From Microcaldota archaeon (GTDB lineage Archaea; Micrarchaeota; Micrarchaeia; Micrarchaeales; Micrarchaeaceae): a stretch of 46,166 nucleotides of DNA. Made by a program: the position numbers and the translations under genes. Below are positions 18,535 through 46,166 of the stretch, piece after piece (within the stretch, counting starts at the first letter, position 1; each line of letters starts with the position of its first letter). The stretch is taken from NCBI GenBank assembly GCA_021792395.1, contig JAJYUR010000008.1:1-46166 (forward strand), written 5' to 3'. The notes under the pieces are model-generated. The model ran no database searches. It was not told the origin of the DNA and saw nothing but the letters and a program-made list of their open reading frames with translations.

Positions 18535-20337
18535 ATGAATAAGAATAAAATCATTAAAAATGAGCAAAAATATCATACTGGTTCAATGTTGGCAGTAGGC
18601 CAACTTTATAGATTTTCAGAAAGGCTAAAAGGCATAAGAGATAATCTTGATACAATTAAGGACAATTACCCTGATTTCGTAAATGCTTTGAATTCGGACA
18701 TTGATGCCATAGACGACATTAAAAAGGATGCCGAAAAGAAAGGAAGCGATGCGGCGAAAAAGGAACTCTCCGGAATTTTAAGCTTATTTGAATCGGGAAA
18801 GCTGGATGAGGCTAGAGATAGGATAAATAATATAATAGATAGCATGGGGAATGATATCTATTCACAACCAAATTCGAAGACCAATCAGGTATTGAAGGAG
18901 GTTGAGGATAATACAAAAAAGGAGATCAATGAACTGAGGGAAATTGAAAAGGCAAACGCGAACAAGCTTAAAGATACAAATGCAGCATACACGGATGTAA
19001 AGAATGCCATGGAGGCAGGGTATAATAAGTATATACACAGCTTGGATAAGGAATTGAGTTCTAAGACAAAATTAGATTACAAAAGCAGCAGGAAAACTGG
19101 GCTTAGGATGCTGGGCAATAACATATTGAATAGCCTTAGAGGAGGAAAGGTTGGAATAGAAGTGAAAAACGCACTGGACAGCGTAAAAGAAGACATGGAA
19201 AACGCCCTTAAAAGCCATACTTATGCAGATACTAAAAGCATACAAGCCGAAATAGATGAAATGTTTAAAGCTGTCAGTCCTCAGCAGGCAAACAAGGCAG
19301 GCGGCGTAAAGAACATGATAAAATCAGGTGTAATTGGTTCTGCCAGTGCTGGGATGAGCACATATGGTGCAAATTCAGTACAGCAGAAGATAGATCTTTA
19401 CAATGCGCTGAAAACAACTATGGGAAACACCCTGGATTCCAAGAATAGCGGAAGGGCAAGCGAACTGAAGAAAACAGGAAGTGAAGCAGTTGAAAAGGCA
19501 AATGCTAAAATCAAAAAGGTATTCGAAAGCAATTTCTCGAAGATTAACAATGCTGATGAAGAGAAGGACCCAGATAAGTTGGGCACTGTGGCATATTTCA
19601 AGAAAGCAGCAGACCTGCTGGGCGTATTGGGAAGCGCAAGGAAGATGATAGAGAAGACAGGCAACACCAAGAGCACAGCAAAATACATAAAAGACCATAT
19701 CGAAGGCAAAGGCGTTGCAGAGGCTAAGCAGGTGCCTGCAATCACAATTGCAGACAACTCAGAATCGAAGGCAAGGGCTTCAATGATAAAAACATTCATC
19801 CAAAATCCAGAAACCAGAAAGGCCCTAGGCTTTGAAAGCGATAGAGGTATGCAATACTGGATAAAGAACAACGTTCTGCCAGTGAATGGAGGAAATAAGG
19901 CGTATAAAGATTTCATGAACAACAATACGCTGAGCAAAGAGGATGCAGTATCGCTTATGGCTGACATATATGCAAGGCTTGTTAGGAACAACAGTGAATT
20001 GAGCAAATATATATCCGAGGAAGATCTTGCAAGTATGGAGTACAGCAAAGCGGAAAAGGCGAAAACACTTTATATATACAATCCTAAAGGAGTAGATGCA
20101 ATAGGCAAAAAACTGGTGCTTGCAGGATACCTAGAAGCCAGCAGAGCAGATGCAAAGAAGAATAACGTGCAGGTTGACGCAAATTTGGATGCATTCGCAG
20201 AAAGAGGCTTGAGGGCTTTGGACATATCGGCTTACATAGCTTCGAACATTCAGGAGTATAATGCCCTGTTAAAGAAACTGAGGGATACAGGTTCTTATTT
20301 GGCACCGCTTTTTATACAGGAATTGGCGACACCGTAA
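18535..20337 (+). CDS. Large alpha-helical coiled-coil protein, 600 aa, unknown
   Basis: No family recognised. The sequence is rich in Lys, Glu, Asp, Asn and Ala, with heptad-like stretches at about 20-150 and 215-345, and almost no Cys or Trp. There is no signal peptide or membrane helix, although GVIGSASAGMSTYGANS (about 270-286) is a small-residue linker. The C-terminal third (about 400-600) looks like a compact helical domain. It may be cytoskeletal, structural or nucleoid-associated; the evidence is compositional only. It has its own TATA box and ends convergent to another small helical gene. Codon use looks like its neighbours. Confidence 0.75.
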   Translation: MNKNKIIKNEQKYHTGSMLAVGQLYRFSERLKGIRDNLDTIKDNYPDFVNALNSDIDAIDDIKKDAEKKGSDAAKKELSGILSLFESGKLDEARDRINNIIDSMGNDIYSQPNSKTNQVLKEVEDNTKKEINELREIEKANANKLKDTNAAYTDVKNAMEAGYNKYIHSLDKELSSKTKLDYKSSRKTGLRMLGNNILNSLRGGKVGIEVKNALDSVKEDMENALKSHTYADTKSIQAEIDEMFKAVSPQQANKAGGVKNMIKSGVIGSASAGMSTYGANSVQQKIDLYNALKTTMGNTLDSKNSGRASELKKTGSEAVEKANAKIKKVFESNFSKINNADEEKDPDKLGTVAYFKKAADLLGVLGSARKMIEKTGNTKSTAKYIKDHIEGKGVAEAKQVPAITIADNSESKARASMIKTFIQNPETRKALGFESDRGMQYWIKNNVLPVNGGNKAYKDFMNNNTLSKEDAVSLMADIYARLVRNNSELSKYISEEDLASMEYSKAEKAKTLYIYNPKGVDAIGKKLVLAGYLEASRADAKKNNVQVDANLDAFAERGLRALDISAYIASNIQEYNALLKKLRDTGSYLAPLFIQELATP

Positions 20338-29699: not shown

Positions 29700-31148
29700 T
29701 TATACTTGTTGCTTGAATATCCTTTTTGTAACTTTTCTTGCGTGTAGCGCGTAATCCGTTCTCTCCTTAGGCTCCACCGATTTTCTTCTTAAAAGGCCTT
29801 CATATTGTATGCTGTATAGGTTATCAAACTTCCTATAATTTATGCTGCCTATGAGTATTTCGCTTACAATCATATAATCGGATCTTATGCCGCTTAATAT
29901 ACTGTTTAACTCTCTTTGGACATCGTCCAGCTGTCCGTCTTCGTATATCGGAAGCAGGTACATTATCCCGTCAGGAGTCTCGAAATCGCATATATACGAA
30001 AACCTGTTCAGCGTAGATTCGGGTTCGCCTATCACGTACTTGCGATGCACATCACGCGTATCAAGAAATTGGGCTTTGTTCAATATGTCTATCATTATTA
30101 TACCGTTATACTTCATGTTGGGCTTTTGTATTGATATTGTTGGGCGCAATATTACATTTGCCTCTTCGCCGGAAAGCCGTTCGTATGCATTTTTTGCGCT
30201 TCCATAGGGCATCTGGTATTTTTTGTCTATTTCCGCAAAGCTAATTCTGCTATTGACGTTGAATTCTTTTAGAACTGCATACTCTCTATGTCTAATATCG
30301 GATTTTGAAGGCTTTGGATGCTCTTTTGTCCTGTGCCATACCCTTTCCTTTATTATATTGAAGAAATTCTCTCGTATAGGGACAAATCCGTAGTCTTCTT
30401 CTACGGGAGTTACCCGCCATTCTGATTGAATATTAATAAGTTGGTTGCTTTTCCGTATGCGGTCAAGCATGTTTGCCAAAACTTCATTGTTTTCTGCTAC
30501 GCAATATACTATCATGTCGTAAATGCCCTTGGTAAGTATTGCCAGCTGCACTCTGTCTTCACTTTCTAAAGCATTTTTGAGTCCGCTTGGACTTGGCATG
30601 GCATCTATGAACTTAACCAAAATGAAATATTTCGAAAAGCCCAGATTGATGACATTTATCTCTTCTGTGTATTTTATTCCGAATTCGCTTTCCGCCCTTT
30701 TTATTATATATGGCAGATTTTTTATTGGAATTTTCGTTATTTTACTCAGGATTTTATAAGGTATCCTGGAGTTCATGCTCAATGCAGTTATTAATTTTAT
30801 ATCATGCCCATTTATCGTTCCATTAGGGGCTATATGAAAATTTTTGCTGTTTTTTGATTCATACTCTAGCTTCTGATTTAGGTTGGAAATCTTTTCTATA
30901 TAATTTTCTTCTATAACGCGGAGGCTTTCAGGCTTGTTTCTCTGCTTTGCCGGCACCATAAGCCCGTCATCAGTTATCCACCCCAAATAATGCGAAATCT
31001 TTTTTGATCTCCCTGCCTCTGCATCATATCTGCTTGTGGCTTCGAATACGCAGAACCGCTTATTAAGGTGCTTTAGCTCTATGTATGAGCCGTATGCAAT
31101 TTTTAAGGCTTCAAACGTTCTTTTAATTTTTTCAGGGATATCCGCCAT
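29700..31148 (-). CDS. Duplicated Lrp/AsnC-like regulator with transposase-like N-terminus
   Basis: Residues about 25-75 (IELKHLNKRFCVFEATSRYD, then ISHYLGWITDDGLMVP) resemble the N-terminal domain of IS1634/IS4-type transposases. About 112-275 looks like an Lrp-like unit: a helix-turn-helix (IKLITALSMNSRIPYKILS) followed by a RAM-like effector domain (YFILVKFIDAMPSPSGL). About 300-460 looks like a second such unit (REYAVLKEFNVNSRISFAEI). One chain could thus mimic an Lrp dimer. Its targets and ligand are unknown. It is a single gene, convergent with rfcS and divergent from the RAM-like gene at 31487, which may be regulated by it. Confidence 0.75.
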   Translation of the reverse strand: MADIPEKIKRTFEALKIAYGSYIELKHLNKRFCVFEATSRYDAEAGRSKKISHYLGWITDDGLMVPAKQRNKPESLRVIEENYIEKISNLNQKLEYESKNSKNFHIAPNGTINGHDIKLITALSMNSRIPYKILSKITKIPIKNLPYIIKRAESEFGIKYTEEINVINLGFSKYFILVKFIDAMPSPSGLKNALESEDRVQLAILTKGIYDMIVYCVAENNEVLANMLDRIRKSNQLINIQSEWRVTPVEEDYGFVPIRENFFNIIKERVWHRTKEHPKPSKSDIRHREYAVLKEFNVNSRISFAEIDKKYQMPYGSAKNAYERLSGEEANVILRPTISIQKPNMKYNGIIMIDILNKAQFLDTRDVHRKYVIGEPESTLNRFSYICDFETPDGIMYLLPIYEDGQLDDVQRELNSILSGIRSDYMIVSEILIGSINYRKFDNLYSIQYEGLLRRKSVEPKERTDYALHARKVTKRIFKQQV

Positions 31149-31982: not shown

Positions 31983-33101
31983 TCAGAATGTCCAGAATTT
32001 TTTCTTAGAATCTTTTTCCTCAGATTCGGCAAACCTTTTAATCAGCTCCTTCTGCTCTGCGGTGACGCGCTTTGGGAAATCGAAGTATATGGTGGTTATC
32101 TGGTCGCCGTATCCAGATCTATTGAAGTGCGGCATGCCCTTTCCTTTCAGCGTTATTGCAGTGCCGTTCTGCATACCGGCTTCTATGTCAATCTCATTTT
32201 TACCGTATAATGTTCCTATAGTCACCTTCCCTCCGAGTATAGAATAATAGAAGGGCATATGCAGCTCTGAATACAAGCTGTCTCCGTCTCTCTCGAATCG
32301 CTTGTCTTTTTGCACTGTTATGTCCACATAAAGGTTGCCCATACCTCCGTTCGCATAGTCTCCCATCCCTTTTACTCTAAGGCGCATCCCGCTGTCTACA
32401 CCTTTTGGTATGTTTATGTCTACTTTTTCATGAGCCTGCTGGGTACCCGTCCCATTACAATATCTGCAGGCTTTTTCGGGAACAGTGCCGGAGCCGCCGC
32501 ATCTTGGGCATATGGTAATAGTCTGCATTACGCCAAAAGGCGTGCGCTGCGTAGCGCGCACTTGACCTGTTCCGTTGCACTGGCTGCACCTGATGACTTT
32601 CGAGCCTTCCGCACCTGTGCCGCTGCAATGCTCGCATGCTTTGATGTGATTCAATTCTATCTTTTTTACCGTACCGCTTGCAGCCTCTTCCAATGTCAGA
32701 CTTACCCTTGCAAGTATATCTCCGCCGGATTCCTGCCTCTGCCTTCTCCCCTGTGAACCAAAAAGATTATCGAATAGGTCATCGGTGCTCCCGAATCCGC
32801 CTACATTGAAATTAAAGCCCATATCCCTGAATATCTGGTCGAAATCGAATCCTCTGAATATATCCTGCTCGCTATAATGCTGGTTGAATTGCTCTGGACC
32901 ATACGCATCGTACTGCTTGCGCTTCTGCGGATCGCTAAGCACTGCATAGGCTTCATTTATTTCCTTGAACTTCTCCTCTGCGTCTGGGCTCTTGTTCCTA
33001 TCCGGATGGTACTGCATAGCTAACTTCCTGAACGCCTGCTTTATTTCGTCCTCTGATGAAGTCTTGCTTATGCCAAGCACTTGATAGTAATCCCTAGCCA
33101 T
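31983..33101 (-). CDS. dnaJ: Chaperone DnaJ (Hsp40)
   Basis: DnaJ delivers unfolded clients to DnaK and stimulates its ATPase. The J domain has HPD (about 32-34). A Gly/Phe-rich linker follows ([19 protein letters not shown]), then four CxxCxGxG zinc repeats ([32 protein letters not shown]) and the two C-terminal substrate domains. At 372 residues it is a full type I DnaJ. It is the last gene of the unit; a 58-base gap with a possible TATA (AATATAAAG) separates it from dnaK. Confidence 0.97.
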
Positions 33102-33159
33102 TCAATCATTTCAACCTTTATATTCATACAGATGTGTGACATCCTTCCGTGCACTGATT

Positions 33160-35007
33160 TTACTTTTCCACCTTGAAATCTGTATCTGCAGTCGAATCCC
33201 CATCGCCATGGTCTTTTCCAGAATCATTGCCAGGGGCACCTGGTGCACCCTGCTGTGCACCTTCAGCGCCCTTGTAGAGATCCGATCCTATGTCTCCAAG
33301 GACTTTCTGCAGCGCGGCCATCGCGTTTTTTATGGAGTCGTAATCTTCCTTCTTTATGGCGTCCTGAAGTTCTGATTTGGCAGTATTGATCTTTTCTGCA
33401 TCCTCTTTCTTTATTTTATCTTTGTATTCTTCCAGCATGTGATCGGCAGTATACACCATCGATTCTGCATTGTTTTTAGACTCTATTTGTTCGCGCAGCT
33501 TCTTGTCCTGCTCTTCGTACATCTTGGCGTCTTCCATCTTCTTCTCTATGTCTTCCTTGTTCATCTTATGAGGTGCGACTATATCCATGCTCTGGCTCTT
33601 TCCGCTCGCTTTGTCTTTAGCTGTAACATGCAATATCCCGTTGGAATCTATATCGAACGTGACCTCTACCTGCGGTATGCCCCTCTTAGCTGGAGGTATG
33701 CCGGTAAGCGTGAATTTGCCCAGGTCTATGTTATCCTTGGCCAACGTCCTTTCACCCTGCACCACATGTATATCAACGCTTGGCTGGAAATCTTCTGCCG
33801 TTGTGAATACCTGGGATTTTTTCACTGGTATTGTAGTATTGCGCTCTATTATCGTAGTTGCAACTCCGCCGAGCGTCTCAATGCTCAGCGTCAATGGCGT
33901 GACATCAAGCAGGAGTATGTCCTTTACCTCTCCTGTCATCACGCCAGCCTGTATGGCTGCACCTAGCGCTACGGCTTCCATCGGATCCACGCCTCGTTCT
34001 ATTTTCTTTACTAAAAGCTGCTCCAGATAGCGCTGCACTATTGGCATCCTTGTAGGCCCGCCTACCAGTATGATCTTGTCTATTTGTGAAGGTTCTAGTT
34101 TTGCGTCCTTTAAGGCCTGCATCACAGGCTTTGCAGATTTTTCAATTATAGGTATGACAAGGCTTTCCAGCTTAGCTCTAGTGAATGAGTATGTAAAGTT
34201 TATCGGCTGCCCGTTCTTCTGACCTAAAAATGGAAGGTTTATCTCAGATGTTAATGCAGTAGAAAGCTCTATTTTTGCCTTTTCTCCTGCTTCCCTAAGC
34301 CTTTGTACAGCCTGAGAATCCTTGGATACATCTACCCCAGCAGTCTTCTTTACCTCGTCCAGAAGGAATGTAAGTATTGCATTGTCCATGTCCGTGCCTC
34401 CAAGCTGAGTATCGCCGCTTGTGGCTTTTACCTCAAATACACCCTTGCCGAATTCCATTATGGTTACATCTAATGTTCCGCCGCCAAGGTCATATACGAG
34501 TATCTTCATCTCCCTGTCTGCCTTGTCCAAGCCGTAAGCAAGGCATGCAGCAGTAGGCTCGTTGACCAATCTCACTACCTCCAGCCCTGCTATCTCTCCT
34601 GCATCCTTTGTTGCCTGTCGCTGATTGTCATTAAAGTATGCTGGCACTGTTATCACAGCCTTCTTGACCTCTTCGCCTAAGAAGGCTTCGGCGTCCTTCT
34701 TTATCTTCTGCAGCAGCATAGCAGAAAGCTCCTGTGGTTTGTACTCTTTTCCAAGCACCTTGTAAATGAAATCAGAACCCATCTTTCTTTTGAATGCAAA
34801 TACTGTGCCGTCAGGGTTTGCAACAGCTTGCCTTCTTGCAGGCTCGCCTACGAACCTCTGCCCGTCTTTCGTAAATGCAACGTAGCTTGGAAATGCCTTT
34901 CCGTATAGTGATGTTCCTTCACTGCTGGGTATTATTACCGGCCTTCCGCCTTCCAATACTGCAGCCGCTGAATTTGATGTTCCCAGATCTATTCCAATTA
35001 TTTTCAT
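33160..35007 (-). CDS. dnaK: Chaperone DnaK (Hsp70)
   Basis: The ATPase domain (about 1-360) has [27 protein letters not shown] and DLGGGTLDV. The substrate domain (about 370-490) has [14 protein letters not shown], and a helical lid follows. The C-terminal tail is Gly/Asp-rich, with no EEVD. At 615 residues it is normal. Hsp70 systems of archaea were acquired from bacteria, and the GrpE-DnaK-DnaJ order here is bacterial-like. It lies 21 bases after grpE. Confidence 0.97.
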
Positions 35008-35028
35008 TTTCTCACCAATTTAATACCA

Positions 35029-35634
35029 TTATTCATTATCTTCTTCTTTTTGCGCGACATCCTGTTTTTTGTCTTCATGGCCATTTTTGCGGCCTGCAAT
35101 TATTACTGCAGATGGCCTTAACATTATGTCCATGAACTTATAGCCTTTCCTTATAACCTCCAATATCGTACCTTCCTTTTCGTCGCTCTCTTTTACTAGC
35201 ACAGTTTCATGCAAGTACGGATCGTATATGCCTTTTGCTTCGATTACGCTCAAGCCGAAACCGCTAAGCAATTCAATAAAATTGGCATATATCATCTCTA
35301 TTCCTTTCGCAAGGTTCTTGTCCAAAGACTGAGACGAGGATATCAATGCCAATTCAAATTCATCAATTACCGGCAATAACCCTTTTAATAGTTCCGCTTT
35401 TCCGCTGTTTCTTGAGCTATCAATTTCGTTTTTAGACCTCCGCTTGTAGTTTTCGAACTCCGCAGCCAAACGCAGCAACTTTTCTTTAATATCCGCACAA
35501 CCTTCGGTATCGTCGTTTTTTTCCTGCACATTTAGTTTTCCCTCTGGTTCTTTTTCAGCTTCTTTGACGATGCTTTCGTCTGCAGCCTTTTTTTCATCTT
35601 TTTTATCTTTCATGTTGTGTTTATCTTCAGACAT
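35029..35634 (-). CDS. grpE: Nucleotide exchange factor GrpE
   Basis: GrpE releases ADP from DnaK. After a long, charged N-terminal tail (about 1-50), the coiled-coil AAEFENYKRRSKNEID and the beta-domain with GIYDPYLHETVLVKESDE, GTILEVIRKGYKFMD and LRPSAVIIAG are typical. At 201 residues it is normal. It starts four bases after the stop of the winged-helix regulator, so it is probably co-expressed with it. Confidence 0.95.
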   Translation of the reverse strand: MSEDKHNMKDKKDEKKAADESIVKEAEKEPEGKLNVQEKNDDTEGCADIKEKLLRLAAEFENYKRRSKNEIDSSRNSGKAELLKGLLPVIDEFELALISSSQSLDKNLAKGIEMIYANFIELLSGFGLSVIEAKGIYDPYLHETVLVKESDEKEGTILEVIRKGYKFMDIMLRPSAVIIAGRKNGHEDKKQDVAQKEEDNE

Positions 35635-35638
35635 GACT

Positions 35639-36055
35639 TCACCTAATCTTTACATTCCTACCTTTCTGGTTCATGAGCTTGTCAAATTCTTTAGCAGCTG
35701 CAAGCATCTTCATCATCTCCCTGTTTAAGTCATACTCAATTTCTTCTATAGCCTTTGACATTTCCGTGGCTCTGAGGTAATATTTTCTTCCCTTCTTAAC
35801 TATCAGTCCGGAATCGATGAGCCTGTTGAGGTGGTATATCACAGTACTTCTAGCTATCTCGGGCTTTATTTTTATCGCACTGCTAGGTATGCCTAGATTC
35901 TTCTTTGCGGCATATGCAAACCTGATAAGTATCTGTTCTTCTATACCTGTCTCTTCATCGTTGGATAGACCAAATGCGTAGCAGAACCACCTTATTAGTT
36001 CCGCAGGGTTTTTTGAACTTGGCCTTTCAACTGAGCGGATTACAATGCTTTTCAT
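35639..36055 (-). CDS. Winged-helix transcriptional regulator of the heat-shock island
   Basis: The central winged helix (about 40-97) with ARSTVIYHLNRLIDSGLIVKKGRKYYLR is ArsR/MarR-like. It has a helical N-terminal region (AELIRWFCYAFGL) and a C-terminal dimerisation-like helix (about 98-130). It is the first gene of the grpE-dnaK-dnaJ unit. Its neighbour across the divergent promoter is hsp20, and inverted repeats lie between. It is therefore a good candidate for a local heat-shock repressor, similar in logic to archaeal Phr or HSR1 (inference). Confidence 0.8.
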   Translation of the reverse strand: MKSIVIRSVERPSSKNPAELIRWFCYAFGLSNDEETGIEEQILIRFAYAAKKNLGIPSSAIKIKPEIARSTVIYHLNRLIDSGLIVKKGRKYYLRATEMSKAIEEIEYDLNREMMKMLAAAKEFDKLMNQKGRNVKIR

Positions 36056-36080
36056 ACATTGTATATTTATGCTGCGAAAT

Positions 36081-36104
36081 GTTTAAATATTTATCTTTTT
36101 AAAC
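36081..36104. promoter_or_regulatory. Inverted repeat over the leftward heat-shock promoter
   Basis: GTTTAAA-N10-TTTAAAC lies 26-49 bases before the winged-helix gene start and covers the likely TATA box (TTTAAATATT region). It resembles the repeat at 7411-7434. Confidence 0.45.
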
Positions 36105-36116
36105 AATATATTATTG

Positions 36117-36141
36117 ATATGTCAAATAAATATTGACATAT
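36117..36141. promoter_or_regulatory. Inverted repeat over the hsp20 promoter (candidate operator)
   Basis: ATATGTCAA-N7-TTGACATAT is a perfect nine-base inverted repeat. Its spacer, ATAAATA, is probably the hsp20 TATA box, so a dimeric regulator bound here would block TBP. It ends 16 bases before ATG 36158; AAGGTGG at 36147-36153 is the hsp20 ribosome site. Confidence 0.55.
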
Positions 36142-36157
36142 TACAAAAGGTGGTTTT

Positions 36158-36646
36158 ATGGATGAAAGAAAAAACAGTAGGAAGGGACCCATAAAGAGCA
36201 GAAACAGTATAGAGGAAGAGTACGATCCATTTGACATTGCCCCGGAAACCGATAGCTTTTTTAGATCGGTAATAAAAGCCATGCATCCATCGAGGTTCAT
36301 AGACCAGATAGCAGATAGCAGCATGCGGATACCTGACACGGATATAATAGACAACGGGGACTCGTTCAGCATAAAGATAGATATGCCAGGAATTGACAAA
36401 AAGGATATAAAATTGAAGGTTACGGAAGACAGGATAATGGTTAAGGCCGAGAAGAGCAATGAGAGGGAAAGAAGCGCAGAGGGAATCTATGCGAAGGAGA
36501 GGTCTTCGCTAGGCTATTACAGGACCATAAGGTTTCCAGAACGGGTTAAAGCAGATACGGCAAAAGCCAAACTTGAAAAAGGCACACTTAGCATAGATGT
36601 AGATAAAACGGAAAAGGCAAGAGGCAGGGAGATAAAGGTGGATTAG
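36158..36646 (+). CDS. hsp20: Small heat-shock protein (Hsp20/alpha-crystallin)
   Basis: This ATP-independent holdase has a variable N-terminal arm (about 1-65). The alpha-crystallin domain spans about 65-155, with FSIKIDMPGIDKKDIKLKV, a positively charged YRTIRFPE loop and the end motif AKLEKGTLSIDVDK. At 162 residues it is normal. It is divergent from the winged-helix-grpE-dnaK-dnaJ unit and shares the regulatory region between them, so it probably belongs to the same heat-shock regulon. Confidence 0.93.
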   Translation: MDERKNSRKGPIKSRNSIEEEYDPFDIAPETDSFFRSVIKAMHPSRFIDQIADSSMRIPDTDIIDNGDSFSIKIDMPGIDKKDIKLKVTEDRIMVKAEKSNERERSAEGIYAKERSSLGYYRTIRFPERVKADTAKAKLEKGTLSIDVDKTEKARGREIKVD

Positions 36647-37453: not shown

Positions 37454-37679
37454 TGTACCTATAGTATATCCAACCTTAATTATAAAAATTATAATGTATT
37501 TGGACCATGGTATAATAAATATTGATTTTGTCTTTGTACTGCAGCAATTTCAGCTTTTCAAGCACTAAGCACTAGCATATTTCGCGTTATCGATATTTTT
37601 GATTTTATATGCCTTGTTTTGCAGAATCGCATAAAGGTAGATTTATTAATAATTATTTGCCAAGCTTAATAGGATAATA
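37454..37679 (+). promoter_or_regulatory. Promoter region of the pilin-LamG operon
   Basis: Between the nucleotidyltransferase gene and the first pilin gene lies 226 bases without a gene. ATTTATTAATAA at 37641-37652 is a TATA box about 30 bases before ATG 37680. An AAGCACT repeat (two copies near 37559-37572) is also visible. No terminator or RNA gene is seen. Confidence 0.5.
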
Positions 37680-40487
37680 ATGCAGGAAGGCAACAAAAAG
37701 GCGCAGATAGCACTTGAGTTTTTAATAGTCTATTCGATAGTGCTTGTTATATTCTTAGTGATATTTGCCATAATAGCCAATCAAAGGGCTGCTACGCTAG
37801 GAAGCCAAGAATATGCTTCGCTGCAACTCGTAACCGAGGATATATCAAGCTATATAAATCAGGCATTGACAGCAGGAAATGGGTATTCTGCAATAGTCCA
37901 GCTGCCAGTTACTGCATCTGTTTCGCCTTATTACCTGTATATGAGCAGCGACGGGGCAATACTTGCGAATTCTACAATAGGTACGACATTGATTTCAGGC
38001 ACATCATATAGTAACTCAAGAAACCTGATAATAAACGGATCCCTTGTCGGCTCATACGGAGGGGTAAATCTTTATAGCATTCCAACATATACAGGGACAA
38101 TCCAACTGACAAATGTCAATGGCGAGATATATGTTGATGAGGTGCCTCCATCGATATTGAGCCTGGAAGGCGTGCCGAAGCAGTCGCAGATAGCGAATTC
38201 CAAAGCGGCAAATTTCAGCACCTATAGCCAGATCAACCTAGGAAGCAGCAGTGCATTGAACGTTGGGTCTGAGACTACCATTGCTATGTGGATCAGATTC
38301 AAAAATTTCACTCCGCCATCAGCTTGGGACATCCTTTCAAGCACAGGCAGTACTTGCACTAACGGCTATCAGGTATGGGCGACAACTTCATCTGGATTCG
38401 GATTCGGTGCATGCAATAACGCTGCCGATATTCGAAGCGCTACGCCGTATATACCTGGAAAATGGTACTTCATTGTTGGAAGGGCTAATTCCACGGATAT
38501 TTCATTATTTATAAATGGTAAAAGTTTGACTCCAACAGCCACTACAACATTTAACACTATCGGACCATGGATATTGGGCATTGGCCCGATAGGAGTTGGC
38601 GTAGCTGAGAGCTTTAATGGAACAATTGCGAACGTTCAGATTTATAATGCACCACTTTCGGCAAACCAGATTCTTCAAATGTATAATAATGGGATAGGCA
38701 GCAGCCCGGTAAACGCAACGTATCTCGCAGGATGGTGGCCTTTGGATGGGAACACAAATGATTACTCAGGATATGGAAGTTATGGAACACCATATAACAT
38801 AACTTATCAGGGCGTGGCAGAGATAAGTTCGTTGGTACTCGGCACCTCGGGCAACTATATTTCAAATGCACCAGTAGGATATGTTTCTTTATATGGCCAA
38901 TTGGGCAACAGTACCAAAAACTTCATAACAAAGTATGCCAATGCAAGCGGAATTCAAAAGCTATTTGTAACTGCAAATTCAAGCATTGGGCCCGATACGT
39001 TGACTACTGATCTTTTCAATGGAAATTTGTCTACATTTAAGAACCTTGTTGGATGGTGGCCTCTTAACATAGGTTATGGCAATAAAGCATATGACTTGAG
39101 TGGTAATGGGAATACCGGTAGCTTTTCGAATCCAGAATGGACCCCAGCAGCTAATAATGGCACGAATTTCATTTCTGCCCAATTCCCAGGGGATACCGCA
39201 GGAGCCTCTGCAAATGCCATAGAAAATGGATTTGTAACGATAAAACCGTCTTCCTCACTGCAAAACATAGAGAGGAATGGCACTTTCACGGTTACTGCAT
39301 GGATATATTACAAAGGACCCACAAGCAACCATATGCAGGGCATATTCGGCGACCTGCCGAATTCCTTTTCTGGACAGGGGTTCCAACTTGAGGGATGGGG
39401 GAGCGGCAATGTCTTGTACATTAACAATTATTACCTGGCATGGCCATCTGGAAGCAATAGCCAGTTCCCAAAAGATAGGTGGGAGATGATAACTGCACAA
39501 TACAACGGATTCACAGGCACAACAAACGTTTATTTGAACAACAAACTGTTTGCTTCTGGAACATTGCCACCTAGTTTAGGTTTGCTGCAAACCATCCCAT
39601 ACTACATAGGTAATGATGCTTGGCAGGCAGGTGGATATGACAGTTTCAATGGATCAATATCGAATGTGCAATTGTACGCGTCGTTCTTGACGCCAACTCA
39701 GATAAACGGTTTATATTCACAAGGCATAACATCAACACCAATCGGCAACTCCAGACTTTTAGGGTGGTGGCCTTTGGATGGAAATGCAAATGACTATTCC
39801 GGAAACAACAACAATGGCACATTGAATTATAACGTGAGCTTCATAGACAAAATATCTTATGATAATATCAGCAATAATAATGTCGCATTTATAAATGGCA
39901 ATCAGAACGGCATTAATATACCCCAAACAAGCTCCATAAACAATGCATGGGATGGAGGCAATTGGACAATAGTTAGCTGGATTAAAGAAACCGCCCCGGT
40001 AACCGCTGGAACAGGCAGATCGCTTATACAGGAGACGGCAGGCTGCACGTCAGGATTATGGCTTACTGCTGGAAGCAGTCCATCAACATATGCTATACAG
40101 ACAATAGAATGGAATTCTCCATCGCCCACTTGTGCAAGCGGTGCAGGAAATCAAGCAGTTTCATCGCCGGATATACCTATCAATACATGGGTGATGGTAA
40201 CCTCTGTCTTCCATTACAATCCGACAGGAACCAGTTGGATTGCTGCGTGCTATGATGGAATATGCAATAATCAAACATGGACGCTAGGAGCACCTGCAGA
40301 CTATGCAACAGTAGGATATAGTTTTGTAATTGGAGGAAATTATTGTTGTGGTGGATCATATTTTACAGGAGAGATTAGCAATACCCAGCTTTATGATGCA
40401 GCGTTGACTATAACCCAGATAAAGCAGCTTTATGCACAGGGATTGCCTGCGCACCATACAGATAGCATACCATTTGGTGGCGGATGA
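37680..40487 (+). CDS. Giant type IV pilin-like protein with three LamG domains
   Basis: The N-terminus KKAQIALEFLIVYSIVLVIF is a class III (prepilin) signal: cleavage after Ala8 would leave Gln as +1 and Glu13 as +5, the canonical pilin pattern. A region of about 130 residues follows. Three LamG-like (concanavalin A-like) domains lie at about 176-337, 497-680 and 735-918, marked by TTIAMWIRF/FTVTAWIYY/WTIVSWIKE, internal ING/LNN turns and NVQ(I/L)Y endings. The linkers include GWWPLDGNTNDYSG and relatives. There are many N-glycosylation sequons and one Cys-rich patch. PibD-like processing would make it a surface-exposed pilus subunit or adhesin. It is the first of four genes; its stop overlaps the next start. 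Confidence 0.85.
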   Translation: MQEGNKKAQIALEFLIVYSIVLVIFLVIFAIIANQRAATLGSQEYASLQLVTEDISSYINQALTAGNGYSAIVQLPVTASVSPYYLYMSSDGAILANSTIGTTLISGTSYSNSRNLIINGSLVGSYGGVNLYSIPTYTGTIQLTNVNGEIYVDEVPPSILSLEGVPKQSQIANSKAANFSTYSQINLGSSSALNVGSETTIAMWIRFKNFTPPSAWDILSSTGSTCTNGYQVWATTSSGFGFGACNNAADIRSATPYIPGKWYFIVGRANSTDISLFINGKSLTPTATTTFNTIGPWILGIGPIGVGVAESFNGTIANVQIYNAPLSANQILQMYNNGIGSSPVNATYLAGWWPLDGNTNDYSGYGSYGTPYNITYQGVAEISSLVLGTSGNYISNAPVGYVSLYGQLGNSTKNFITKYANASGIQKLFVTANSSIGPDTLTTDLFNGNLSTFKNLVGWWPLNIGYGNKAYDLSGNGNTGSFSNPEWTPAANNGTNFISAQFPGDTAGASANAIENGFVTIKPSSSLQNIERNGTFTVTAWIYYKGPTSNHMQGIFGDLPNSFSGQGFQLEGWGSGNVLYINNYYLAWPSGSNSQFPKDRWEMITAQYNGFTGTTNVYLNNKLFASGTLPPSLGLLQTIPYYIGNDAWQAGGYDSFNGSISNVQLYASFLTPTQINGLYSQGITSTPIGNSRLLGWWPLDGNANDYSGNNNNGTLNYNVSFIDKISYDNISNNNVAFINGNQNGINIPQTSSINNAWDGGNWTIVSWIKETAPVTAGTGRSLIQETAGCTSGLWLTAGSSPSTYAIQTIEWNSPSPTCASGAGNQAVSSPDIPINTWVMVTSVFHYNPTGTSWIAACYDGICNNQTWTLGAPADYATVGYSFVIGGNYCCGGSYFTGEISNTQLYDAALTITQIKQLYAQGLPAHHTDSIPFGGG

Positions 40488-41038
40488 TGATAGCAAAAAG
40501 AAACTTTAAAGGGCAGTTCTGGAGCTTCGACGTAATATTCGCCATTGTCATCTTTACTGTTTCGCTCACGATACTGGCTTATACATGGTTCAACATAAAC
40601 AGTGAGCTTGCACTCGCATATGGCAATGGAGGTACTGTAATGGAATTGCAGGCACAGACGCTTGCACATACCTTATTGTCAACCGGATATCCGTCCAACT
40701 GGCAGTCATTAGTTAATACCACTAATACTTCCACATGGGGCAGCGTAAGCATAGGGCTGGTAAATAGGCAGGGCACTACAGCCATAGCACAAAACAAGCT
40801 TTATACCTTTATGGCTATGGAAAATCATAGCTATGAAGCCACTAAACAGGCTCTAGGAATAGGCTATGCATATTTTATAATAATATCAGGGAAAAACATA
40901 AATGTGACAATTGGGCACAACCCCTCGAAATATAGCGCATTGACTACCTTTGTAACAAAAGAGCAAGGGACACTTGGCAACCAGCCGGTAAACATACAGA
41001 TAGACGTATGGACCAACAAACCCATAGCGGTGAGTTAG
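40484..41038 (+). CDS. Minor pilin-like protein (no LamG)
   Basis: The N-terminus KRNFKGQFWSFDVIFAIVIFTVS resembles archaeal pilin-like proteins of the KGQ-F-S-D type. Cleavage after Gly10 would put Asp at +6 in place of Glu +5. The rest (about 40-184) is a small, glycosylatable beta-rich domain without recognised family. It is the shortest protein of the operon. Its ATG lies in an ATGATGA overlap with the previous gene stop, so expression is coupled. A role as minor pilin or initiator is inferred from the signal and from context. Confidence 0.78.
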   Translation: MMIAKRNFKGQFWSFDVIFAIVIFTVSLTILAYTWFNINSELALAYGNGGTVMELQAQTLAHTLLSTGYPSNWQSLVNTTNTSTWGSVSIGLVNRQGTTAIAQNKLYTFMAMENHSYEATKQALGIGYAYFIIISGKNINVTIGHNPSKYSALTTFVTKEQGTLGNQPVNIQIDVWTNKPIAVS

Positions 41039-41042
41039 TGAT

Positions 41043-42887
41043 ATGATGAATAAAAACAAGAACATGAAGGGCTTCATATTTACTCTCGATGCCGTATTTT
41101 CCCTTATAGTTGCAAGCGCAGCCATTTCCATTTTGCTATATGTACACTTCACGCAACCATTGGCATACCAGACTCCTGTCGCATATACATCGACAGTGCT
41201 GTCCAATCTGCTGAATACCAAATTGGGGCAGGTTTCATCTTCTGGAATAATCTCAAATCCTGTGCAATCGGCATATAAAAGTCCATACGCAGATTTTGGG
41301 TACTTGAACCAACATGGACAAACACCAGCAGATTATATATCGGTTGCCGATACTAATTTCAACAGCACGTTCTCAAAGAACAATGCCATAACACTGTCTG
41401 CATGGATATATGAATTTCCGAATTCTGAATGTGAAGTCAGCGTTGCTAATATTTATAATCCTCCAAGTACTTCTTATCCGGGTGCTGCAATTTTCAGATT
41501 CGGCGTCTCCGGAGGCAGCGGATGGGCTACATCGATAAATGCGGTTATGTTGGAATTATTTACTCCGACTGTTCAGACAAATATGTTTAGCAGTCTGCCA
41601 GTACCATATGGAGTTTGGAATTATATAACTGCTAGTTATAACGGGACTTACGTAAACTTTTACATTAATGGCATCCCTGCAGGATCTACCGCATATAGTT
41701 CTACTTTGTCTACTGGTCCAAACAGCGAATTGTTGATAGGTGCAAATCCAAATTCAGGGTGCTATGCATATTTTCCCGGATACGTTAGCAATCTGCAAAT
41801 TTACAATACTGCCTTATCGCCTTCCCAAGTAAGCCAACTATACGATGAAGGTATAGGGGGCGTGCCTGTAGGCGGCTCTGGATTAGTTGGATGGTATCCA
41901 TTGAATGGAAACGCAAACGACTATTCTGGAAACAATTACGACGGAGTTCAGCACAGTGTAAATTTTGTAAATACTTCGTATGTTCCTATAGGGAATTATA
42001 ACGCAACGAATAACTCAAGCCTATTGTATACACTATCGGAGCTTTATTTGAATAACGAAAGCACATATGCAAACTTTATAGCACATAACATAGGAGTGAA
42101 CAGCACAAGCGCCATATTCATAAACGATACGTATGCGCCTTCATATGGCATTGCATCTTTTAATGGCATTAGCAGCTCTATCACTACAGATAAACATATA
42201 ACTAACTCTATAATCAATTGGACTGTAGAAGCATGGATTAACCCTGCAAATTTAGACCAATTGGGAATTGCGGTAGAGAACGGGTGGGACAATAACGTAG
42301 TTGGAAATGGCTATGGGTTTGGCATTAGCAATGGCGGGCTTGGTACAGGATCACAACTGTTTGGGCTTTTTTCTGGAGTAACAACAATTAATACAGGATA
42401 TACTTTTAGCAGCCCGAACAGATGGTATGATATTGTAATGACAAGGAATCAGAGTGGCATTACTTCTTTTTACGTAAATGGGGTTCAGACCCCAAATACT
42501 ACTTCGTCAGTGCCTCTCACATCAAATGATTTTTATATAGGCTCGGATACTGGAATAAGGTATTTTAACGGATCAATAGCAGATGTTCAATTTTACAATA
42601 CATCTTTATCTCCTTCACAAATAAGTAAGATTTACAGTAGCGGAATAGGTGGGATGCCAATAAGCAATTCAAAACTTATAGGATGGTGGCCATTAGAGGG
42701 AAACGTGAATGATTATTCTGGATATGGAAATGCAGGCTTTGCAAGCAATATAATTTATAAGAGGGTACCTTTCACTCCGATAGGCTTAAGCGATGCCTAT
42801 CTCGTAAGCAAATCATCCAGCCCAATGCTTTTAAGCGTAGGGAATAAAAGCAGTATATATAACGTAAGTGTTGTTACATGGCATTGA
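41043..42887 (+). CDS. Minor pilin-like protein with two LamG domains
   Basis: The N-terminus NMKGFIFTLDAVFSLIVASAAI has the prepilin form with Asp at +6 after cleavage at Gly10. Two LamG-like domains lie at about 95-270 and 370-534, each with AITLSAWIYE or NWTVEAWINP and an LQIYN/VQFYN ending. The linkers GWYPLNGNANDYSG and GWWPLEGNVNDYSG are repeats of those in the other operon proteins. The start could be ATG 41043 or ATG 41046, four or seven bases after the previous stop. It ends in a short Trp/His tail that overlaps the next gene by ten bases. Confidence 0.82.
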   Translation: MMNKNKNMKGFIFTLDAVFSLIVASAAISILLYVHFTQPLAYQTPVAYTSTVLSNLLNTKLGQVSSSGIISNPVQSAYKSPYADFGYLNQHGQTPADYISVADTNFNSTFSKNNAITLSAWIYEFPNSECEVSVANIYNPPSTSYPGAAIFRFGVSGGSGWATSINAVMLELFTPTVQTNMFSSLPVPYGVWNYITASYNGTYVNFYINGIPAGSTAYSSTLSTGPNSELLIGANPNSGCYAYFPGYVSNLQIYNTALSPSQVSQLYDEGIGGVPVGGSGLVGWYPLNGNANDYSGNNYDGVQHSVNFVNTSYVPIGNYNATNNSSLLYTLSELYLNNESTYANFIAHNIGVNSTSAIFINDTYAPSYGIASFNGISSSITTDKHITNSIINWTVEAWINPANLDQLGIAVENGWDNNVVGNGYGFGISNGGLGTGSQLFGLFSGVTTINTGYTFSSPNRWYDIVMTRNQSGITSFYVNGVQTPNTTSSVPLTSNDFYIGSDTGIRYFNGSIADVQFYNTSLSPSQISKIYSSGIGGMPISNSKLIGWWPLEGNVNDYSGYGNAGFASNIIYKRVPFTPIGLSDAYLVSKSSSPMLLSVGNKSSIYNVSVVTWH

Positions 42888-45800
42888 AAAAGAATAAAGC
42901 GATGAAGAAAAGCAAAAAGGGCATACTCCTGACCCTTTTGACCATAGTGCTATTCGTACTCATGCTGGGCGAGCTCATTACATATGTGGTTCTTAACATA
43001 AATTATACGAATATAGCATCGCAGGCATCCCAAAGCCTTAACTCAGGGTCGTTTGTGTCTAACCTGAACGGCAGCATATCAAATTTTATGCACACCTCAT
43101 TGAATAACGCGCTATATTCGGCAATTTATTACGAAGGAAACCCGACCCTTAGAAAAGATTATTTCATCAACAATACCTCTTTTGTATTGTCAACATTAAT
43201 GCAAAATGGCACCATAAACGGTTATAACATGTCCTCCAGAATGGGAGAGACCATGAGTAAATATATAGCATCGTTGAAAAACTCCGCATCAGCGCAGAAC
43301 ATAGCACTGAATATAACAAACGGAAGCTTAAGGATATATCAAAATAGCGCTTTTGCCATAAGCGCAAGCTATACTGCATTAGCATCCATAAACCAGAGCG
43401 GCAGCGTATCTACATATCCAATATATGCACACACTAGCGTGTCAGTCGCATATAAGCCTGATCTTCTAAGCGTTGAAGAAGGCATGAACACTACGCTTAT
43501 ACCTTATTCAGGATATCCTAAGGCGCAGCTCATAGGAAACATATATGCAAAGGCAGGGAGCATATCGCCTTTCATGTTTGTATATGGCACCCCTTCATAT
43601 GTATCTGGAGAACCCAAGTGCAGCGGCATATCATCAAGCGTAGAGAACGCAAACTATATACTTGTTACACCGGATGCGGCAGACATAAACCAGAGTGTAT
43701 GCAATATGGGAGGGCTGATAACAAATATTACAAATACAACCACGCCGTTGAAGCCATATCTCTTGTATACAAATGCAACTGTAATAAATGATACAAGAAA
43801 TTATACCCACGTTTTACTTAACGGGCCAGGATTGGCAGCATATTCGCTTTCAACTCTAAAAAACGCGATAACAAACGGATATTATTTCGCGACGAATTAC
43901 ACGCCTGATTATTTAGGGCAGGCTCAGGGAAGCGTTAATCAAGTATCTAATTATGGCTTAGCCTCGTTCAATTTGCTTAATAGGAATGTCGCGAACTTAA
44001 GCATTAATAATGGGTATATTGCCATACCTTCAATTCCACATATTTCTGGAAGCAGCACTGCAACAATATCTGCTTGGGTGTACCTAAATTCGTTGGGAAA
44101 CAACCAAATAATTTTATCTGATGATTGGGGATCTCCAGAAGTTTTACAGATGTATGTGCATACAAATGGTCAATTAGAGGCAGATTTTGGTTCTGGTAGC
44201 GGATGGATAGTTGCTGCATTAACAAATGCAGGTGTAATAAAAACTAATAAATGGTATTATGTTATAGCAAAATGGAGCAGTGGAAGTGGAGAATCCATAT
44301 ATATTAATGGAGTACAACAACAGATTAGTTATATAGTCGGCAGTAATACAGCTACGGGCATATTAGGCACACCAGGAACTGGAGATATAGGCAGTAATCA
44401 GGGCAATGGGGGAACACTGATTGGATCAATATCAAATTTACAAGTGTATAATAGTTCTCTCTCAAGTTTTGATATTAATAAAATTTATGGCAGTGGACTT
44501 TCTGCAATGCCAATAAGCAATGCTGGATTGGTAGGATGGTATCCGCTCAATGGCAATGCGAATGATTATAGCGGAAATGGTAATAACGGTGTTCCGACAA
44601 ATGTAATATACAGTGGTTTGTCCAATTATACTTTGGACGCATTGCCAGATGCACCTATAACCACATTTAATAGTGGAAAAGCACATTTCAATGGATATAG
44701 TAGTTATATAACCGGAAATTCGTACGCCTTTCCAATAACTGCTACTGCATGGGTATACCCAACAAACCTTCAAAGCCCACATTTGAAGGTTATAATGGAA
44801 TTAGATGGGAATCAACCTAGCAGTTCAGGCCAAGGTGAAAGTTATCAATTCTTCATAGTGCCAAAGGGGTCTGGATATTGCGGAGGGATAGCAGGCACAT
44901 TATTTTTATGGAATAATTCTGCAGCCACCTGTACTAATCTAATTGTACCATTGAATAAATGGAGTTTTGTAGCATTTACAATAAATACAAGCGCTATGAA
45001 AGTATTTCTTAATGGACAAATTTATATTTATCCAGCTACATTGACATCAGCTAATCCATCTAATAAAATATTTTTAGTTGGTGAACAAGGAGATAATCGT
45101 TATTTTAACGGATCGATAAGGAATATACAAATTTACAATGCATCCTTTAACGAATCCGAATTAAAATCTTTATATAAGGGTGGGATGAATTCAGGTCCGA
45201 TTAATAACACAAATCTAGCAGGATGGTGGCCCCTAGACGGAAATGCGAATGATTATAGCGGATACAACAATAACGGCACGCCAATTGCAGTTTCATTCAA
45301 TGCATTGCCAAACGATCCCACATCCAATCTTGTTGAAGGTATATTTAACTGCACGAGCATGAATCAATGCAGTAGCAGCATGATACAGCACCTTTACCTG
45401 AATCCATTGCCGCTTGCTTATGCAGGAAAGGGATTCATGAACGAAACAACAGCGCTAGGACTGCCATATGGAGGCATATCGGACGTCGCAAGCTTTAATG
45501 GGCAGAGTGGATATATTGGCGCTCCAGTGGGAACATGGTTAGGCACTAATCATAATTTTACTGTGGTTGCATGGTATTATAGTCTAGGTGGCGGTGGATC
45601 TATAGTTAATATTTGTACCTCGTTATCATGCGGCGGATGGTCTACCCCATTCTTGGGTTATAATAGTAATGGCTCTACATATGCATGGATAAATGGACCT
45701 CCAGTTTTATGGAACTCCACACCTTTTGGAAAATGGTATTTCGCTGCAATAACGTATTCTGCAACTTCTAATAATGAATTTTTATATGTAAATGGAAAAA

Positions 45801-46159
45801 CTGTTTCGGAGGGAACTGGAACATATAGCCCATCTGGAACATTTGATTATGCAACAATAGGCGCCGATCCAACTGGACAACATTATGGTCAGATATACTT
45901 CGACGGTTCTATTGCTGACGCACAGATTTATAATGTTGCACTGTCTTCAGCACAGATACAAGAGCTATACCTTAACAATACGGTAAGCGGCGCAACTCCA
46001 GTAGCATATTGGCCGCTGAGCACAGGCTTGAACGGCTTGCTCAATCAAACCCCCGATGTAATAAATGGCAATACAGGATATCTTTACTCTGGAAGCAGTC
46101 AATGCACGGTAGCAGAAGTCGCAGATGGAACATGCGGCGTCGAATATGCGCAACCGTAA
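42878..46159 (+). CDS. Very large pilin-like protein with three LamG domains
   Basis: The N-terminal membrane segment KSKKGILLTLLTIVLFVLMLGELITYVV has a prepilin-like basic-Gly boundary but no acidic +5 or +6 residue. Residues about 45-350 form a domain I do not recognise. Three LamG-like domains lie at about 372-540, 600-770 and 868-1035. The linkers read GWYPLNGNANDYSG, GWWPLDGNANDYSG and finally AYWPLSTG. Two or more Cys pairs near residues 824-831 and 913-918 may form disulfides. The protein lacks an acidic +5 residue and is large, as is the tip subunit GspK of bacterial pseudopili, so it may cap the assembly (inference). It overlaps the preceding gene by ten bases. Confidence 0.8.
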   Translation: MALKKNKAMKKSKKGILLTLLTIVLFVLMLGELITYVVLNINYTNIASQASQSLNSGSFVSNLNGSISNFMHTSLNNALYSAIYYEGNPTLRKDYFINNTSFVLSTLMQNGTINGYNMSSRMGETMSKYIASLKNSASAQNIALNITNGSLRIYQNSAFAISASYTALASINQSGSVSTYPIYAHTSVSVAYKPDLLSVEEGMNTTLIPYSGYPKAQLIGNIYAKAGSISPFMFVYGTPSYVSGEPKCSGISSSVENANYILVTPDAADINQSVCNMGGLITNITNTTTPLKPYLLYTNATVINDTRNYTHVLLNGPGLAAYSLSTLKNAITNGYYFATNYTPDYLGQAQGSVNQVSNYGLASFNLLNRNVANLSINNGYIAIPSIPHISGSSTATISAWVYLNSLGNNQIILSDDWGSPEVLQMYVHTNGQLEADFGSGSGWIVAALTNAGVIKTNKWYYVIAKWSSGSGESIYINGVQQQISYIVGSNTATGILGTPGTGDIGSNQGNGGTLIGSISNLQVYNSSLSSFDINKIYGSGLSAMPISNAGLVGWYPLNGNANDYSGNGNNGVPTNVIYSGLSNYTLDALPDAPITTFNSGKAHFNGYSSYITGNSYAFPITATAWVYPTNLQSPHLKVIMELDGNQPSSSGQGESYQFFIVPKGSGYCGGIAGTLFLWNNSAATCTNLIVPLNKWSFVAFTINTSAMKVFLNGQIYIYPATLTSANPSNKIFLVGEQGDNRYFNGSIRNIQIYNASFNESELKSLYKGGMNSGPINNTNLAGWWPLDGNANDYSGYNNNGTPIAVSFNALPNDPTSNLVEGIFNCTSMNQCSSSMIQHLYLNPLPLAYAGKGFMNETTALGLPYGGISDVASFNGQSGYIGAPVGTWLGTNHNFTVVAWYYSLGGGGSIVNICTSLSCGGWSTPFLGYNSNGSTYAWINGPPVLWNSTPFGKWYFAAITYSATSNNEFLYVNGKTVSEGTGTYSPSGTFDYATIGADPTGQHYGQIYFDGSIADAQIYNVALSSAQIQELYLNNTVSGATPVAYWPLSTGLNGLLNQTPDVINGNTGYLYSGSSQCTVAEVADGTCGVEYAQP

Positions 46160-46166
46160 ATCATTC

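Follow-up and report, generated by a model that had tools for sequence, protein, structure and literature searches.

Two T4P systems are among the described systems closest to the locus analyzed here. The clade 1 archaeal type IV pili (T4P) of the Methanococci, Methanothermobacteria, and Thermococci combine an ATPase and two TadC proteins with several minor pilins and large adhesin candidates (Makarova 2016, PMC4858521). In Mia14, an expansion of LamG domains was reported, "some of them linked to type IV pili loci," host interaction was suggested, and genes MIA14_0170 to MIA14_0177 were assigned to clade 1 T4P (Golyshina 2017, PMC5498576). Here, we describe four adjacent forward-strand genes, designated P1 to P4, at one end of a 46,166-nucleotide contig of a Microcaldota archaeon (JAJYUR010000008.1; the whole stretch is called the window). 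We consider it likely that they belong to a T4P whose minor pilins bear exchangeable LamG adhesin cassettes, probably for partner recognition. The genome that we take to be that of "Candidatus Mancarchaeum acidiphilum" Mia14 (G011) has the same operon type at ~152 to 159 kb, also beside an ATPase gene and two TadC genes. The main text of PMC5498576, however, contains neither the four-pilin quartet nor minor pilins fused to LamG, conservation across the order, or the exchange of cassettes. While the link between LamG and T4P has been on record for Mia14 since 2017, the quartet and the cassette exchange appear to be new; a search of the open-access literature, with subscription journals, preprints, and supplements outside its range, returned no description of either.

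The genome containing the window (831,528 bp, 44 contigs, 88.7% complete) belongs to one family with G032, a genome whose locus matches NZ_CP060530.1 ("Candidatus Micrarchaeum" A_DKE) and which we take to be "Candidatus Micrarchaeum harzensis" A_DKE. NCBI taxonomy places Micrarchaeum in the Micrarchaeaceae, Micrarchaeales. By its family, the organism is a DPANN archaeon, a possibility that the original prediction had raised, and a tiny acidophile from a group whose members live attached to other archaea. Four packed open reading frames were recovered exactly where that prediction had placed them, at positions 37680 to 46159: P1 (37680 to 40487, 935 amino acids), P2 (40484 to 41038, 184 amino acids), P3 (41043 to 42887, 614 amino acids), and P4 (42878 to 46159, 1,093 amino acids). 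P1 and P2 overlap by 4 bases, P2 and P3 are separated by 4 bases, and P3 and P4 overlap by 10 bases. The products sum to 2,826 amino acids, in agreement with the ~2,800 residues of the original prediction; the unusual size claimed there is relative, as such a size is the rule within the order Micrarchaeales. The upstream region (37630 to 37679, forward strand) contains an AT-rich, TATA-like stretch (~37641 to 37656) which, judged by eye, would suit a short-leader archaeal promoter.

All four protein families have the features by which archaeal type IV pilins are recognized, namely, a basic N terminus, a small residue, and a hydrophobic helix that follows at once. Their N-terminal motifs are kept across 50 to 56 members of each family: K/R-[G/A/S/L]-QIALEF in P1 (KKA/QIALEFLIVY... 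in the window), K-[G/A/L]-QFWSFD in the minor-pilin-like P2, K-[G/A]-FIFTLD in P3 (KG/FIFTLDAVFSL...), and K-[G/A]-[I/Q]LLTL in P4 (KKG/ILLTLLTIV...). In this respect the class III prepilin N termini of the original prediction were borne out, although the Pfam model for such signals was not reached (see below). An acidic residue is found at +5 in P1 (Glu, as in the window, or Asp) and at +6 in P2 and P3 (Asp), whereas P4 has none near the cleavage site and is in this like the tip subunit GspK. The AlphaFold model of P2 consists of a 55-residue helix (residues 10 to 64) and a small head with four strands (predicted local distance difference test [pLDDT] score, 90.6). The model of P4, in which the pilin part takes up the N-terminal ~340 residues, has a 75-residue helix (residues 13 to 87) and long strands (residues 143 to 189), followed by jelly-roll domains.

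In the Pfam search, PF13385 (Laminin_G_3) matched P1, P3, and P4 with 132.4, 144.5, and 164.3 bits, respectively, well over the cutoff of 27.6 bits, and did not match P2. A profile search of the whole genome located eight LamG domains in the operon (E values, 5e-23 to 4e-9), the number foreseen and with two or three per gene: three in P1 (38217 to 38672, 39261 to 39707, and 39897 to 40421), two in P3 (41328 to 41834 and 42174 to 42626), and three in P4 (44006 to 44476, 44732 to 45163, and 45497 to 45961), all on the forward strand. Only one further LamG domain was found in this genome, inside a stand-alone pilin-like gene, so the clustering in the operon is not due to chance. In a Foldseek search, the P4 model matched neurexin LNS domains (E value, 5.8e-18), laminin LG domains, and pentraxins (TMt, 0.74), all with the jelly-roll fold expected of LamG. 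LamG/LNS domains frequently bind glycans or proteins. NCBIfam matches to TafC were rejected, as their scores of 43 to 60 bits fall far below the cutoff of 410 bits and are accounted for by LamG.

The window ends 7 bases past P4, and with the operon at a contig end the motor genes lie outside it. The reverse complement of another contig of the same genome (C1; L063) begins with the final 127 bases of the window (46040 to 46166, forward strand) in an exact match, which suggests that the two contigs adjoin each other in an assembly made with k=127. According to Pfam, C1 encodes a T2SSE ATPase, a 235-amino-acid protein, and two T2SSF/TadC-like proteins, all pointing toward P4, and the search for PilB/PilC-like ATPases that had been proposed as a check on pilus linkage thereby found its object. 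The arrangement is conserved across the order: of 39 loci of relatives with intact P1, P3, and P4, 32 have a TadC gene no more than 3 kb away from P4, in every case convergent with it. The pairing of a VirB11/T2SSE ATPase with two TadC proteins is that of clade 1 loci (PMC4858521), and membership of P1 to P4 in a pilus is well supported. There are also differences from clade 1: LamG repeats are fused straight to pilins, no prepilin peptidase or FleN/MinD gene was recognized in the stretch read here, and the Pfam search found no DUF2341, the PilY-associated domain of the large proteins in clade 1 loci, in P1 to P4 of the window. A further likeness to clade 1 is that DUF2341 is present in P4 of one relative (G008). 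A VapB/VapC-like toxin-antitoxin pair, identified by eye, lies between P4 and the TadC genes (L063:6747-7399).

The four minor-type pilins with large passenger domains, including β-propellers in relatives, could also belong to a pseudopilus or a surface-display complex serving secretion or attachment to a biofilm matrix, and A_DKE does live in a host-derived biofilm (PMC8975820). We regard this as unlikely compared with a long host-binding pilus, because the archaeal systems of this composition (an ATPase with two TadC proteins) in Methanococcus build pili (PMC4858521) and because stand-alone genes of the major-pilin type (QSAMEYLMTYGW), some of them with LamG, exist, so that major pilins are available. 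The set of minor pilins with large passenger domains also resembles PilY1-type tip adhesins and bacterial minor-pilin tip complexes, as does the pyrroloquinoline quinone (PQQ)-type β-propeller that replaces the first LamG domain of P3 in many relatives. This likeness is one of domain layout, and P1 to P4 may sit at the tip.

P2 was found in 40 of 44 good relatives and, across the phylum sample, in 84 of 96 good genomes. A search with P2 also retrieved 80 named loci, from records titled Micrarchaeota/Micrarchaeaceae, "Marsarchaeota," or unclassified "bacterium" metagenome-assembled genomes. Both of the cultured Micrarchaeales examined, A_DKE and Mia14, have the operon. In the family of the window genome (25 complete operons), there are mostly three LamG domains in P1, one or two in P3, and zero to three in P4, while a second family (14 complete operons) has four, one, and two (once one), respectively; P2 is without LamG in all operons listed. 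In other orders of the class, relatives of P2 are common, and the neighboring quartet is small and free of LamG in most loci read, as in L250 (P3, 187; P4, 481; P1, 175; and P2, 169 amino acids). Locus L261 is intermediate, with the gene order of the window and a single LamG domain, in P4 only. Most simply, the order Micrarchaeales would have gained its LamG cassettes at or close to its origin, on a pilin quartet that already existed. Two loci of another family of the class (L244:9723-18269 and L251:4386-9365) encode, after P2, giant pilin-like proteins with β-helix and Big_1/invasin-type domains, not LamG. In L135, L156, L157, L167, L172, L180, and L181, either P3 and P4 are absent and P2 is near TadC genes or the quartet is split.

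As judged from sequence, the LamG domains are not inherited in place, while the pilin scaffold is inherited normally. Best matches in another genome were counted for 316 domains after removal of near-duplicate genomes: 157 were to the same position, 52 to elsewhere in the same protein, and 107 to another protein (159 displaced). Because weak best hits could be noise, we also used a strict set of reciprocal-best pairs with at least 45% identity, taken from genomes whose P2 proteins are <65% identical. Among these 30 pairs, 12 keep the same position, 3 join different positions of the same protein, and 15 join different proteins (18 displaced); 11 of the 30 connect different families, and in 23 the domains are more alike than the P2 proteins. 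In the window, the clearest case is the first LamG domain of P3, whose closest relative is the third LamG domain of P1 in G016 (64% identity over 183 amino acids, with similarity that stops at the domain borders). The reverse pair is also supported: among the domains at these two positions, the closest relative outside the genus of the third LamG domain of P1 is the first LamG domain of P3 in G016. For the second LamG domain of P4, the closest relative is the second LamG domain of P1, in G016 by the tree and in G021 by BLAST (best hit, 47%). The second position of P1 is the one most frequently inherited in place. Monophyly of the first P3 position against the third P1 position was rejected by the approximately unbiased (AU) test (p-AU, 2e-5), an optimistic value because the groups were chosen after the pattern had been seen.

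Displaced similarity of this kind could instead stem, without any exchange, from old paralogous subfamilies of LamG that evolved at uneven rates and were lost differentially, and the domains are indeed repeated and often saturated near 30% identity, a level at which weak best hits are uninformative. Yet the displaced pairs reach 55% to 64% where P2 mostly reaches only 35% to 57%, there are no comparable same-position matches in other genomes, the window genome and G016 show one reciprocal swap, and displaced similarity mostly ends at domain borders (median identity, 51% inside the domain versus 31% to 32% in the flanks). We therefore give paralogy the least credence of the explanations considered. 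Duplication within genomes was likewise rejected as the chief source of LamG diversity, since a tree of 330 LamG domains places the nearest neighbor in the same genome for only 9; G029, with two P4 LamG domains that are 84% identical, is a clear exception. Imperfect direct repeats on the forward strand could serve as homology arms for exchange: six 68-nucleotide copies at LamG unit boundaries (the first at 38706 to 38773 and the others starting at 39738, 41865, 42657, 44510, and 45197) and six 47-nucleotide copies at LamG ends (the first at 38610 to 38656 and the others starting at 39642, 41769, 42561, 44414, and 45101).

Comparisons of related genomes point to replacement of whole domains. 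Between G007 and G032 (same genus; P2 identity, 68%), the P1 N termini are 75% identical, and some LamG domains are 52% to 56% identical, as expected, whereas others in the same proteins reach only 27% to 37%. Between G054 and G056 (P2 identity, 79%), the four LamG domains of P1 are only 34% to 47% identical. In the close pair G011 and G034, the nonsynonymous rate (dN) is 0.059 for P2 and 0.077 to 0.103 for the P1 LamG domains, which are only modestly faster, and the ratio of nonsynonymous to synonymous rates (dN/dS) of LamG in close pairs is 0.06 to 0.12, lending no support to positive selection as the source of diversity. The dN/dS of ~0.1, the modest rates in close pairs, and the mosaic identities are better explained by wholesale replacement than by fast point change. 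Fast turnover with a low dN/dS in the retained domains, as whole-module replacement predicts, would also fit a history in which viruses using the pilus as a receptor drove LamG diversity, with swaps as an escape from infection and ligand binding secondary. Pili are common virus receptors. We consider this improbable, as substitution by another complete LamG domain suggests that fold and function are retained; no evidence of viruses turned up, although none was sought. A comparable process is known for the VARTIG hypervariable immunoglobulin (Ig) modules of Thermococcales surface proteins, in which interspecies recombination substitutes one variable domain for another (PMC8416519). VARTIG proteins, however, have Ig domains, a variable gene content, and no fusion to pilins, whereas in the present operon the genes keep their order and the LamG modules alone change place.

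Further LamG domains are found outside the operon, with up to 34 per genome among the relatives. Those sampled are mostly in stand-alone genes of ~290 amino acids with a near-invariant N terminus (QSAMEYLMTYGWAILIIAV or a close variant of it) and a LamG domain that varies. The stand-alone major-pilin-type protein at L064:8443-9453 (QSAMEYLMTYGW) has one LamG domain, and many genes of this kind in other genomes combine near-identical leaders with divergent LamG domains. Two adjacent stand-alone LamG pilins in L214 (G011) have LamG domains that are 100% identical, a recent duplication. In G071, a LamG domain (C5:19382-19861) lies within a 5,658-codon open frame. As a same-genome donor pool for the operon, the stand-alone pilins were rejected, as no such pair was seen among those sampled; a few matches between stand-alone and operon LamG domains cross genomes (62% and 55%).

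In the mechanism that we propose, P1 to P4 would form the minor-pilin set of a T4P. An A24 prepilin peptidase would trim their class III signals, the adjacent ATPase and the two TadC-like platform proteins would then assemble the pilus, and P1, P3, and P4 would present several LamG (concanavalin-like) domains in a row, either on the surface or at the filament tip. The scaffold would pass vertically, while LamG cassettes would be replaced and moved among positions, subunits, and species. As ligand, a carbohydrate or glycoprotein of the partner cells (Thermoplasmatales type) or of their matrix would be likeliest. The comparisons presented here establish the gene set, its domains, the linkage to the motor genes, the conservation, the relatives free of LamG, and the exchange of cassettes; from these we infer processing, assembly, tip location, sugar binding, and host recognition alike.

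Several observations weigh against this mechanism. The Pfam class III signal model (PF04021) was not reached (10.1 bits for P1 versus a cutoff of 23.7 bits; no match for P2 to P4), the P2 model returned nothing below an E value of 1e-3 in a search of PDB folds, and confidence in the P4 model is moderate (pLDDT, 72.5). No A24 prepilin peptidase was detected in the window genome (88.7% complete); since all 32 good relatives have one, as does the same-genus G002, its absence is probably best explained by incompleteness of the genome. A second T2SSE ATPase gene lies near a gene for a presenilin/SPP-type aspartyl protease (PF06550; L062:9083-13300), a class of proteases to which A24 prepilin peptidases are distantly related. 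In 3 of 15 displaced pairs, the similarity (~50%) extends into the sequence immediately before the domain, the ligand of any single LamG domain is not predictable, and the contact filaments of A_DKE have been considered possibly host-made (Krause et al., PMC8975820).

Nevertheless, host binding is our leading hypothesis, and partner recognition is favored on three grounds. LamG/LNS domains are habitual binders; filaments are seen at host contacts of A_DKE, where the host matrix was stained only by galactose and mannose lectins (Krause et al., PMC8975820); and host binding by T4P has been shown with mutants in a bacterial episymbiont, the ultrasmall Nanosynbacter lyticus TM7x (PMC12206443), although that system is bacterial and LamG cassettes are not mentioned in its abstract. 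The same pilus could instead act among the archaea themselves, in kin recognition, aggregation, or the exchange of DNA, much as the Ups pili do in Sulfolobus. In Sulfolobus acidocaldarius, variable pilin domains set self versus nonself recognition (as cited in PMC8416519), and the exchange of cassettes between lineages itself requires DNA exchange. However, self-recognition tends to preserve one species-wide signal, and the attachment of LamG to three of the four minor pilins is found mainly in Micrarchaeales, the cultured members of which grow with Thermoplasmatales; most of the sister-order loci read lack it in the quartet. We think it unlikely that the pilus serves such a role in place of host binding.

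The remainder of the window contains mostly ordinary archaeal housekeeping genes. A dnaJ-dnaK-grpE-regulator-hsp20 heat shock cluster (31983 to 36646) lies upstream of the operon and stays beside it in several relatives, and two large ORFs (18535 to 20337, 600 amino acids; 29700 to 31148, 482 amino acids) had no Pfam match.

Because the LamG cassettes are exchangeable, the binding specificity of the pilus could be reset without rebuilding it. We tentatively propose, as a possibility somewhat short of probable, that Micrarchaeales have a modular recognition pilus in which a fixed four-pilin scaffold carries LamG cassettes swapped among slots, subunits, and species, in which stand-alone genes of the major-pilin type with a single LamG domain add to the repertoire, and in which the range of partners changes or broadens by domain swap. 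The locus bears on how DPANN archaea recognize and hold their hosts; the filaments at contacts between A_DKE and its Thermoplasmatales partner have no assigned genes. Conservation across the order, turnover of the outer domains, and a stable scaffold are what one would expect of a recognition device. They make the LamG-bearing pilins strong candidates for such a role, and the locus names the proteins and domains with which this may be tested.

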